Source of the DNA: Bacteroidota bacterium
GTDB taxonomy: Bacteria > Bacteroidota > Bacteroidia > B-17B0 > B-17BO
DNA: 10,576 nucleotides
Direction: 5' to 3'
Assembly: GCA_025356715.1 (NCBI GenBank)
Contig: JANXRU010000079.1
Coordinates: forward strand, 1 to 10,576
Below, one piece after another: positions 7,669-10,576 of the stretch (its first letter is position 1; every line of letters starts with the position of its first letter). The notes beneath the pieces are model-generated. The model had not been told where the DNA came from. It did no database searches and saw only the letters and a list, made by a program, of their open reading frames with translations. The position numbers and the translations under genes are program-made.

Positions 7669-9567
7669 TTGAATTCACAATACGATATTATAGTAGTTGG
7701 TGCTGGTCACGCAGGTTGCGAGGCCGCTGCTGCTGCTGCTAACATGGGCTCTAAAGTTTTATTATTGACCATGAACATGCAAACTATTGCTCAAATGAGC
7801 TGTAACCCGGCTATGGGTGGTATTGCAAAAGGGCAAATAGTGCGTGAAATTGATGCTTTAGGCGGTTATAGTGGTATTGTTTCTGATAAATCTGCTATAC
7901 AATTTCGTATACTCAATCGTTCTAAAGGCCCAGCTATGTGGAGTCCTCGCACACAAAACGATCGTATGTTGTTTGCAACTACTTGGCGAGAAATGCTGGA
8001 AGAAACCCCCAACGTTGATTTTTGGCAAGACATGTGTCGCGAATTAATTGTAAGTAAAGATGGTAAACGTGTTGAAGGTGTGATCACGGGTATGGGTTTA
8101 GAATTTAAAGCTAAAGCAGTTGTTTTAACAAATGGAACGTTTTTAAATGGCTTAATTCATCTTGGAGAAAAACAAATTGGAGGGGGAAGGAGCGGAGAAT
8201 CAGCAAGTTACGGTATTACAGAACAGTTAGCTAAATTAGGATTTGAAAACGGACGCATGAAAACAGGCACCCCGCCTCGTATTGATGGCCGAACGTTGGA
8301 TTATTCTAAAATGGAAGAACAAGAAGGAGATTTAGCTATTGATAAGTTTTCTTATTTAGATGATACTTCACCTTTCTTTAGCAAAGACGAAAACAGAAAA
8401 ATTAAAAAACAAATTCCCTGTCATATTACTTATACCAATCAAGCGGTTCACGATATTCTAAAAACAGGTTTTGAAAAATCTCCCATGTATTCAGGAAGAA
8501 TTCAGGGATTAGGACCACGTTATTGCCCAAGTATTGAAGATAAAATCACACGTTTTTCTGAAAGAGAAAGACACCAACTATTTGTTGAGCCTGAAGGCTG
8601 GAACACTCATGAAATATATGTTAATGGATTTTCAACTTCTTTACCAGTAGATGTTCAACAAAAGGCATTACAATTTATTCCCGGTTTTGAAAAAGCAAAA
8701 ATGTTTCGTCCAGGTTACGCCATTGAGTATGATTATTTTCCTCCAACACAATTAAAGCTTTCTTTAGAAACCAAGTTGGTTGACAATTTATATTTCGCTG
8801 GACAAATTAACGGAACAACTGGCTATGAAGAAGCCGCTTGTCAGGGACAAATGGCCGGCATAAACGCGCACCTTAAAATTAACGAAAAAGATCCTTTTGT
8901 TTTAAAACGTCACGAGGCCTATATTGGTGTTTTAATAGACGATTTAGTTACTAAGGGAACAGACGAACCTTACCGTATGTTTACATCCCGTTCGGAATAT
9001 CGATTGTTGTTAAGACAAGACAATGCGGATGTTCGTTTAACGCCTCTCTCCCACTCTATTGGTTTAGCAGGTCAAGCTCGATTAGATAAGGTAAATGATA
9101 AAATAAAAAAGTACGAATCATTAATTCATTACTTTAAAAATAATAGCGCTACTCCTGAAGAAACGAACCCATATTTAGAAAGTATAAACTCTTCAGCTCT
9201 AGTTCAAAAAACGCGTTATTTTTCTGTGCTGTCTCGCCCTGATGTCTCTCTTCTTGATCTAATTAGATACAATAAAGACTTAGCTGGTTTTACAAAAGAA
9301 TTTAATACAGATGTTATTCAGCAAGCAGAAATTTTAATGAAGTACGAAGGCTATATTGAACGAGAAAAAGAAGGCGCCGAAAAAGTCATCAAGCTTGATA
9401 ATTATAAAATCAAATCTGATTTCGATTATAAAGCTATTAGTAGTTTATCATTAGAAGCTAAGGATAAGCTAACGAAACTTCGCCCAGAAACCATTGGTCA
9501 AGCAAGTCGTATTTCGGGCATCAATCCAGCCGATATTTCAGTTTTATTAGTTCATTTAGGAAGATAG
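7669..9567 (+). CDS. mnmG: tRNA uridine 5-carboxymethylaminomethyl modification enzyme MnmG (GidA)
   Basis: FAD-dependent partner of the GTPase MnmE; together they install the (carboxymethyl)aminomethyl group on U34 of certain tRNAs, supporting accurate decoding and frame maintenance. The 632-residue protein has family length. It shows the N-terminal FAD fold VVGAGHAGCEAA (about 9-20), CNPAMGGIAKG (45-55), the first GidA signature GPRYCPSIEDK (from G282, with C286 the likely catalytic cysteine), the second signature AGQINGTTGYEEAACQG (377-393) and the conserved C-terminal tail PETIGQASRISGI. The reading frame is closed upstream by TAA at 7648-7650 and contains no ATG before conserved sequence, so TTG at 7669 is the only sensible start. 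The stop TAG overlaps a parS-like site. No mnmE or rsmG is adjacent. Base composition is less A/T-biased than in the signalling genes. Confidence 0.98.
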   Translation: MNSQYDIIVVGAGHAGCEAAAAAANMGSKVLLLTMNMQTIAQMSCNPAMGGIAKGQIVREIDALGGYSGIVSDKSAIQFRILNRSKGPAMWSPRTQNDRMLFATTWREMLEETPNVDFWQDMCRELIVSKDGKRVEGVITGMGLEFKAKAVVLTNGTFLNGLIHLGEKQIGGGRSGESASYGITEQLAKLGFENGRMKTGTPPRIDGRTLDYSKMEEQEGDLAIDKFSYLDDTSPFFSKDENRKIKKQIPCHITYTNQAVHDILKTGFEKSPMYSGRIQGLGPRYCPSIEDKITRFSERERHQLFVEPEGWNTHEIYVNGFSTSLPVDVQQKALQFIPGFEKAKMFRPGYAIEYDYFPPTQLKLSLETKLVDNLYFAGQINGTTGYEEAACQGQMAGINAHLKINEKDPFVLKRHEAYIGVLIDDLVTKGTDEPYRMFTSRSEYRLLLRQDNADVRLTPLSHSIGLAGQARLDKVNDKIKKYESLIHYFKNNSATPEETNPYLESINSSALVQKTRYFSVLSRPDVSLLDLIRYNKDLAGFTKEFNTDVIQQAEILMKYEGYIEREKEGAEKVIKLDNYKIKSDFDYKAISSLSLEAKDKLTKLRPETIGQASRISGINPADISVLLVHLGR

Positions 9568-9581
9568 TTTCACGTGGAACA
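9566..9581. promoter_or_regulatory. parS-like ParB-binding site 1
   Basis: AGTTTCACGTGGAACA matches the bacterial chromosomal parS consensus TGTTNCACGTGNAACA at 15 of 16 positions, differing at the first base. It uses the last two bases of the mnmG TAG stop and the first base of the GNAT ATG, and so spans the whole 13-nt gap. The same 14-nt core occurs twice more nearby. ParB (Spo0J) binding is inferred from the consensus. Confidence 0.85.
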
Positions 9582-10156
9582 TGATGCTGAAGATTAACCT
9601 AACCCCATTTCCAATATTATATACAAATAGATTGATTCTTCGTAGGATTTCTTTAGATGACACTTCCGACTTTTTTACGATTAGATCCAACAAAGAAGTT
9701 ATGTCTGCAATTGATAAAAACCCTATCGAAAGTATGGCAGAAATAGAATCTTTTATAAATCTGATTGAACAAGGAATAAATAATAATACGGGTATTGCTT
9801 GGGCTGTTTGTTTAAAAGATGACAATCGTATGATAGGTCATTTTGGATTTCACAGAATTGATTTTATAAATTATAGAGCAGAAATTGGCTATGCCCTACT
9901 CCCTAAGTTTCAAAACAGGGGTTTGGGTAGCGAAGCATTACAGGCTATTTTAAATATTGCTTTTAATCAGTTCAATTTCCACTCTATAGAGGCCGATGTG
10001 AATCCGGCGAACAGCCCTTCAATCAAATTAATAACAAAAATGGGTTTTATTAAAGAAGCTCATTTTAGGGAAAACTATTTTTTTAGAAATACCTTTTTAG
10101 ACAGCGCAATTTATTCATTACTAAAAAAAGATTACCTTTGTATTCAATCAGAATAG
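9581..10156 (+). CDS. GNAT-family N-acetyltransferase (RimJ/RimL type)
   Basis: 191-residue single-domain acetyltransferase of the Acetyltransf_3 type, which transfers acetyl from acetyl-CoA to an amine such as a protein N terminus, aminoglycoside or polyamine; the substrate cannot be read from the sequence. The opening LYTNRLILRRISLDD (about 13-27) is typical of the RimJ/RimL group. The acetyl-CoA pyrophosphate loop is Q111-N-R-G-L-G116 within EIGYALLPKFQNRGLGSEAL, followed by NPANSPSIKLITKMGF (141-156). The gene is complete. Its start is MM (9581 or 9584); the first ATG shares its A with parS site 1, so position 9584 is possible. It is flanked on both sides by parS-like sites in the same orientation. 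Co-transcription with mnmG is likely given the 13-nt gap. Confidence 0.9.
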   Translation: MMLKINLTPFPILYTNRLILRRISLDDTSDFFTIRSNKEVMSAIDKNPIESMAEIESFINLIEQGINNNTGIAWAVCLKDDNRMIGHFGFHRIDFINYRAEIGYALLPKFQNRGLGSEALQAILNIAFNQFNFHSIEADVNPANSPSIKLITKMGFIKEAHFRENYFFRNTFLDSAIYSLLKKDYLCIQSE

Positions 10157-10158
10157 AT

Positions 10159-10174
10159 TGTTTCACGTGGAACA
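10159..10174. promoter_or_regulatory. parS site 2 (perfect consensus)
   Basis: TGTTTCACGTGGAACA matches the parS consensus TGTTNCACGTGNAACA at every position and is a near-perfect palindrome around CACGTG. Its complement, TGTTCCACGTGAAACA, has the form of Bacillus subtilis Spo0J sites. It starts two bases after the GNAT stop and ends 30 bases before the methyltransferase start, in a gap with no other recognisable element. Confidence 0.92.
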
Positions 10175-10204
10175 AATAACTAATTCTTATCTAATCAATA
10201 ATAA

Positions 10205-10576
10205 ATGTTAACAATAGAAAAATGCCTTGTTTGTGGTTCTGCTAGTTTCGAACCATTTTTATTTTGTAAAGATTATACAGTAAGTCAGGAACAATTCAAT
10301 ATAGTTTCTTGCAAAGGTTGTGGTTTTAAGTTTACAAACCCTCGTCCAGAAAATGCTGTATTGGGAGGTTATTATAAGGCGGAGTCCTATGTTTCCCATT
10401 CTAATTCTAATAAAGGAATAATAAATAAGCTTTACCATATTGTAAGATCTCATACTTTAAAGTCTAAGGTTAAAATGATTGCTGGTTTTGTTTCACGTGG
10501 AACTATTTTAGATTATGGATGTGGAACAGGAATGTTTTTGTCTGAGATTAAAAATGCTGGATGGGAAACTTATGGA
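10205..10576 (+). CDS. SAM-dependent methyltransferase with N-terminal zinc finger, 3' end cut off by the window
   Basis: The first 124 codons are present and the frame is open to the last base. The protein starts MLTIEKCLVCGS with a CxxC pair (C7, C10) and a second pair C36-KG-C39, a typical treble-clef or rubredoxin-like zinc site, followed by FTNPRP (44-49). A class I methyltransferase core then begins with motif I, ILDYGCGTGMFL (101-112), the SAM-binding glycine loop. This zinc-finger plus Methyltransf_23-like arrangement is seen in small-molecule and sugar methyltransferases; the substrate is unknown. ATG at 10205 places the first cysteine pair close to the N terminus and is the natural start. 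A parS-like sequence (10489-10504) lies in its coding region and supplies codons V-S-R-G-T (96-100) right before motif I. Confidence 0.88.
   Translation, partial: MLTIEKCLVCGSASFEPFLFCKDYTVSQEQFNIVSCKGCGFKFTNPRPENAVLGGYYKAESYVSHSNSNKGIINKLYHIVRSHTLKSKVKMIAGFVSRGTILDYGCGTGMFLSEIKNAGWETYG
10489..10504. promoter_or_regulatory. parS-like site 3, inside the methyltransferase gene
   Basis: TGTTTCACGTGGAACT matches the parS consensus at 15 of 16 positions, differing only at the last base. The 14-nt core is identical to sites 1 and 2 and has the same orientation, 330 bases after site 2. It is read in frame as GTT TCA CGT GGA ACT, coding V-S-R-G-T. Confidence 0.85.

Follow-up and report, generated by a model that had tools for sequence, protein, structure and literature searches.

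A probable chromosomal parS cluster at mnmG in a Bacteroidota bacterium, with one site inside a methyltransferase gene

What does a short near-palindrome do that recurs three times at the end of the gene mnmG and in the genes behind it? The question is raised by a Bacteroidota bacterium (GenBank assembly GCA_025356715.1, contig JANXRU010000079.1), from which we analysed a stretch of 10,576 nt, referred to here as the window. Our reading is that the three sites are chromosomal parS, the loading points of the partition protein ParB, and that they belong to a cluster at mnmG in the origin domain of the chromosome. We give this reading a probability of roughly 0.93.

The exact 14-mer GTTTCACGTGGAAC occurs three times on the + strand, within 940 bp, and at no other place in the window. 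The 16-mers that enclose it were compared with the parS consensus TGTTNCACGTGNAACA:

9566..9581, + strand: parS site 1, matching the consensus at 15 of 16 positions, core 9567-9580.
10159..10174, + strand: parS site 2, matching at 16 of 16 positions, core 10160-10173, intergenic, between a gene for a GNAT acetyltransferase and a gene for a methyltransferase.
10489..10504, + strand: parS site 3, matching at 15 of 16 positions, core 10490-10503, within the methyltransferase gene.

A sequence-only reading of the same DNA had reported this count, the single orientation and these scores against the ParB consensus, and our scan of the window reproduced all of them. Its claim that three exact copies lie far beyond chance also held, as no exact copy appeared in 200 dinucleotide-preserving shuffles of the window. 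When three mismatches were allowed, 1 of 200 shuffles also gave three matches, so that the strength of the site evidence lies in the exact matches. The shared orientation is itself little informative because parS is a near-palindrome, whose asymmetry is confined to positions left free by the consensus. What had gone unnoticed is the place of site 3. Its core lies in frame within the methyltransferase gene, where GTT TCA CGT GGA AC encodes V-S-R-G-T at codons 96-100. The site 1 core shares its first base with the end of the mnmG stop codon (9565-9567) and stops directly ahead of the GNAT start at 9581, and site 2 falls after the GNAT stop (10156) and before the methyltransferase start (10205). 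Since the window stops within the methyltransferase gene and many relatives have more sites just after the stop codon of this gene, three sites may be a lower bound.

All genome-scale evidence comes from the genomes of relatives rather than from the window's own chromosome, which we infer to resemble theirs. We used 80 mnmG loci, the best 80 of 582 confirmed relatives, and 53 further mnmG stretches, leaving out genomes already among the loci, fragments and copies at contig ends. Near mnmG, defined as the span from 250 bp upstream to 3.7 kb downstream of the gene, the 80 loci hold 143 exact cores in 0.44 Mb, against 3 elsewhere in 1.03 Mb, and each of these three outlying cores (L011, L049, L080) is less than 4.5 kb from mnmG. 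Compared with these 143 cores, each of 150 palindromes with permuted halves occurred at most once. At least one core is found near mnmG in 58 of the 80 loci, and four common core variants make up 45, 36, 30 and 29 of the 143. An exact core starts at most 31 nt from the mnmG stop codon in 35 of 80 records (the window included) and overlaps it in 10; cores in relatives also often follow the stop codon of the methyltransferase.

The same concentration is seen across genomes. The 30 genomes scanned carry 1-7 cores each, and cores lie beside mnmG in 23 of the 24 genomes for which matches were listed at least in part; one genome (G001) has two additional cores near the start of another contig. Every core lies within about 4 kb of mnmG in all 12 fully listed genomes, 8 of them new. 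Class-wide, the core is present in 340 of 395 genomes, mostly in 1-4 copies, and all 27 further class members with listed places have cores within mnmG itself or at most about 1.3 kb from it. Four stray cores lie elsewhere (G228, G284, G418, G471), and all four have unusual bases at the free positions. In relatives the core is thus gathered at mnmG and not scattered over the genome, an outcome in favour of the sequence-only reading.

The origin domain was placed by guanine-cytosine (GC) skew. Two genomes that share their order with the close relative G002 are contained almost whole in single contigs, of 4.60 Mb in G033 and 5.65 Mb in G034, and forty 20-kb samples were taken from each. The cumulative skew minimum falls at 955 kb in G033 and at 2325 kb in G034, and the parS cores lie at 953-954 and 2322-2325 kb, respectively. 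Shuffles matched the skew signal in 1 of 2000 cases for G033 and in 0 of 2000 for G034, where the minimum stays within 2325-2345 kb when single samples are left out. From the skew minimum, dnaA is 0.21 (G033) and 0.19 (G034) of the chromosome away, and parB 0.38 and 0.44. In contig 1 of G072, the skew is negative in 6 of 6 samples left of mnmG and positive in 11 of 13 to its right, with the best change point at parS; in contig 5 of G025 (Ohtaekwangia koreensis), 8 of 9 samples on the left are negative and 9 of 10 on the right positive. Equally good shuffles numbered 0 of 2000 for G072 and 1 of 2000 for G025. The resolution of these positions is tens of kb, and about 0.1 Mb or worse in G033 and G025. 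A change of skew sign at or near mnmG and parS was therefore found in 4 of 4 relatives sampled, which supports the suggestion of the sequence-only reading that the cluster at mnmG is origin-proximal. What the skew indicates in relatives is an origin domain that includes parS, and not the exact place of oriC.

A chromosomal-type ParB, on whose presence that suggestion depended, was identified in 27 of 30 genomes in a first set of relatives and in all 8 of a second. The window shows no parAB, as the earlier reading had remarked, and in relatives parAB lies far from mnmG. More specifically, ParB and mnmG are on separate contigs in all 23 genomes of the first set with both contig numbers known, and parB is 1.7 Mb (G033) and 2.5 Mb (G034) from mnmG. 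In these two genomes parB (G033:C1:2684193-2684705, L089; G034:C1:4818659-4819171, L090) is closer to the terminus side than to its own parS cluster. Operons of parAB are usually found near the origin. ParA (277 amino acids in both cases) precedes ParB (299 and 296 amino acids) in the two loci examined. The ParB of locus L084 matches solved ParB structures, including Spo0J of B. subtilis, and ParB has the motifs GERRFRA and ENIQRE, which presumably bind cytidine triphosphate (CTP).

The condensin complex was also searched for in 13 relatives. No Smc passed the cut-off in any of the 13, although all 13 gave weak partial matches, and neither ScpA nor ScpB was found in any of them; among 14 control genomes, the searches detected Smc above the cut-off in 10, ScpA in 9 and ScpB in 9. 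A role of parS as a loading site for Smc-ScpAB thus finds no counterpart in these 13 relatives, in which a divergent condensin is possible. These genomes contain a few open frames, roughly 1,200 amino acids long, for which the only matches are weak coiled-coil ones.

A number of observations weigh against an origin-domain parS cluster at mnmG. No exact core lies near mnmG in 22 of the 80 loci, several of them with full flanks, and 55 of the 395 class genomes have no exact core; the arrangement is therefore not universal. In Phaeodactylibacter luteus (G027), both cores are away from mnmG and the 21.9-kb mnmG locus (L057) has none, so that the cluster seems to have been moved or lost in this lineage. 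The leave-one-out range of the skew minimum is wide in G033 (620-980 kb), and the best skew change point in G025 lies about 0.1 Mb left of parS. Clusters resembling DnaA boxes, defined as three TTWTNCACA in 400 bp, were not found in 37 of 38 mnmG loci scanned; the one such cluster, in L003, lies about 7.5 kb before mnmG. Finally, ParB was not found in 3 of the 30 core-bearing genomes (G009, G010, G019), which may be incomplete. Several Saprospiraceae loci were also seen to have no parS core near mnmG.

The position of site 3 allows the DNA site and the protein to be compared. A methyltransferase orthologue is present in 102 of 136 records, or 99 after three duplicates were dropped. In 53 of the 99, V-S-R-G stands directly before the S-adenosylmethionine (SAM)-binding motif, a stretch which we take to be motif I. 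The codons GTT TCA CGT GGA are used in 52 of these 53, the exception having TCG for Ser, and this is a fair count, as the set was chosen by amino acids; one of the 52 (L206) has lost the core in the following codon. Elsewhere in these genes, the same four codons make up 51, 13, 16 and 37% of the codons of their amino acids. Codon identity at V, S, R and G is 1.0, 0.96, 1.0 and 1.0, compared with a mean of 0.46 over 159 other conserved columns, in which the maximum (0.96) belongs to a Phe column. On a tree of 51 of the 53 sequences, with the short copies of the window and L020 left out, the four codons changed 0, 1, 0 and 0 times, against 10-28 times (mean 19.6) for 60 comparable columns, and the median nucleotide identity among these sequences is 0.64. 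The adjacent Thr codon, whose third base lies outside the core, has an identity of 0.38 and changed 14 times. In L222, Ser has become Ala by a change at a free position only and the parS core is kept. The 47 sequences with no exact core at the site 3 position comprise six that are one base off and others with mostly different residues. We conclude from this codon comparison that the in-gene parS is under strong selection at the DNA level.

Site 3 is also not the only in-gene position. Of the 99 orthologues, 85 retain V-S at codons 26-27 of the methyltransferase, and 75 of these use 15 different codon pairs; all 10 of the 10 orthologues with V-S-R, which is the fair count here, use GTT TCA CGT, followed by GAA AC. 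Five related methyltransferases carry a site around codon 265 that is read in a different frame, and the mnmG genes of four genomes (L224, L225, L226, L227) carry an in-frame V-S-R-G/E-T about 130 codons before their end. L224 and L062, whose contigs have the same length (14,301) and an identical sequence at the site, were counted once. Since the codon-265 group and the mnmG cases were chosen for having a site, they show recurrence and not selection. A further core in mnmG, in a different frame, was seen in L077.

Could a CACGTG-binding transcription regulator instead use the palindromes as operators through which it controls mnmG and the genes around it? The CACGTG core is common among palindromic operators, and sites 1 and 2 lie in intergenic gaps. 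Site 3, however, is deep in a gene, the sites of relatives stand after stop codons and inside mnmG, and the match extends beyond CACGTG to the full 16-bp parS consensus. In the 12 fully listed genomes all cores occupy one region, unlike a regulon, and the GC skew indicates that this is the origin region. Operators are thus a very unlikely explanation.

For site 3 alone, selection on the protein sequence V-S-R-G-T might have produced the DNA match as an incidental by-product, and the residues do directly precede the SAM-binding motif of the methyltransferase. Yet 46 of the 99 orthologues have no VSRG at this position, the Ser to Ala swap in L222 left the core intact, and the four codons are nearly invariant next to a free Thr codon, all of which makes protein selection scarcely credible as the cause. 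The sites might also be leftovers or a small dispersed repeat with no present function, as their number and position differ among relatives and the six one-base departures at site 3 look like decay. Frozen codons in otherwise diverged genes, the recurrence of sites at several positions of the same genes and the near absence of cores elsewhere in the loci argue against this, and we regard it as extremely improbable. Two further candidates were set aside. A plasmid or second replicon seems unlikely from relatives, in which the same arrangement sits on the 4.60- and 5.65-Mb contigs that also bear dnaA. The Noc-binding site (NBS), given as TATTTCCCGGGAAATA for the ParB relative Noc in the excerpts of PMC7383237, has the same length and layout as the window sites; it has the core CCCGGG where the window has CACGTG, and by alignment the L084 ParB carries Arg and Gly at the two positions that Noc fills with Gln and Arg. 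The excerpts of PMC7383237 call these two specificity residues invariant in ParB, and the CACGTG core together with the ParB-type residues of this relative speaks against a Noc-binding site.

The genes of the window are, in order, nadA, a MORN-repeat protein, a multi-PAS HisKA_2 histidine kinase, a LytTR response regulator, mnmG, the GNAT gene and the methyltransferase gene, the last three of which surround or contain the sites:

7669..9567, + strand: mnmG (gidA), a tRNA-modification gene of 632 amino acids with start codon TTG, matching the GIDA family with E 6.9e-161.
9581..10156, + strand: GNAT acetyltransferase, between mnmG and the methyltransferase gene.
10205..10576, + strand: methyltransferase (Methyltransf_23-like), incomplete at the window end, host of site 3.

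The cut methyltransferase copy scores 24.7 bits against Methyltransf_23, under the Pfam cut-off of 27. A GNAT relative lies near the same place in 8 other records of the 136 searched. Two records that also have the GNAT gene (L190 and L201) carry cores at -649/-46 and -635/-43 from the methyltransferase start, and the window at -638/-45. The GNAT gene is flanked by parS on both sides, and the gene and the second parS possibly arrived together. Upstream, positions 2927-7572 encode the histidine kinase, a protein of 1,291 amino acids with several PAS domains and HisKA_2, which adjoins the LytTR response regulator. The nearest MnmG relatives, among the best 80 of 582, are 87-88% identical and come from Bacteroidota metagenome genomes. 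One locus titled Candidatus Saccharibacteria (L018) has a Bacteroidota-type mnmG (75% identical) and is perhaps mislabelled or a mixed metagenome bin.

As a kind of element, parS is already known. The sites resemble the chromosomal parS of ParABS systems, for which the excerpts of PMC7383237 and PMC10197239 give the consensus TGTTTCACGTGAAACA, in being 16-bp sites that match the consensus and occur in few, clustered copies, and relatives have a skew-based origin domain and a cognate ParAB family. They differ from it in that the parAB and dnaA of relatives are far from parS, that Smc, ScpA and ScpB were not found in 13 of 13 relatives, and that sites within genes turn up at a number of codon positions, with the codons frozen. 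A parS within coding sequence is known in B. subtilis. The closest comparison lies in the same phylum as the window: in Bacteroides caecimuris and Muribaculum intestinale, origins were placed by a parS cluster together with GC skew, no known condensin was found, and the origin is stated not always to coincide with dnaA (PMC10197239, in excerpt); these excerpts make no mention of mnmG or of in-gene sites. PMC8653839, in excerpt, concerns second chromosomes and has no bearing on the window sites. The present analysis adds that in relatives the sites gather at mnmG, far from dnaA and parAB, that Smc-ScpAB is apparently missing there, and that in-gene copies are under strong selection at the DNA level. 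A literature search covering titles and the starts of abstracts returned no parS beside mnmG in Bacteroidota and no frozen in-gene parS codons; the main survey (Livny et al. 2007) lay outside it, and an earlier description is possible.

By analogy with studied ParABS systems, ParB expressed from a distant parAB operon, as in relatives, would load at these sites, slide onto flanking DNA and build a partition complex. ParA would then move this complex, so that the newly replicated origin region would be the first to be separated. The mnmG region would hold the parS cluster within the origin domain, with dnaA and parAB outside it. Because the genes around mnmG are tightly packed, some sites would come to lie in coding sequence, where selection on the DNA site would hold the codons. 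A broader proposal, to which we give even odds, is that in this part of the Bacteroidota the origin-domain centromere is largely carried by the coding sequences around mnmG, with parS settled in and across frame at codons 26, 96 and about 265 of the methyltransferase and about 130 codons before the end of mnmG, dictating residues, and that it operates with ParAB but without Smc-ScpAB. If this is true, ParB-parS has to rely on a different condensin, or do without one, in segregating or organising the origin.

In draft Bacteroidota genomes, parS at mnmG would be a practical means of recognising the origin region, where dnaA would mislead. The methyltransferase would offer a clear natural case in which selection on centromere DNA overrides codon freedom within an enzyme gene. 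Furthermore, since the search of relatives found no Smc-ScpAB, these bacteria may be suited to studying what ParB-parS does when its customary condensin partner is missing.

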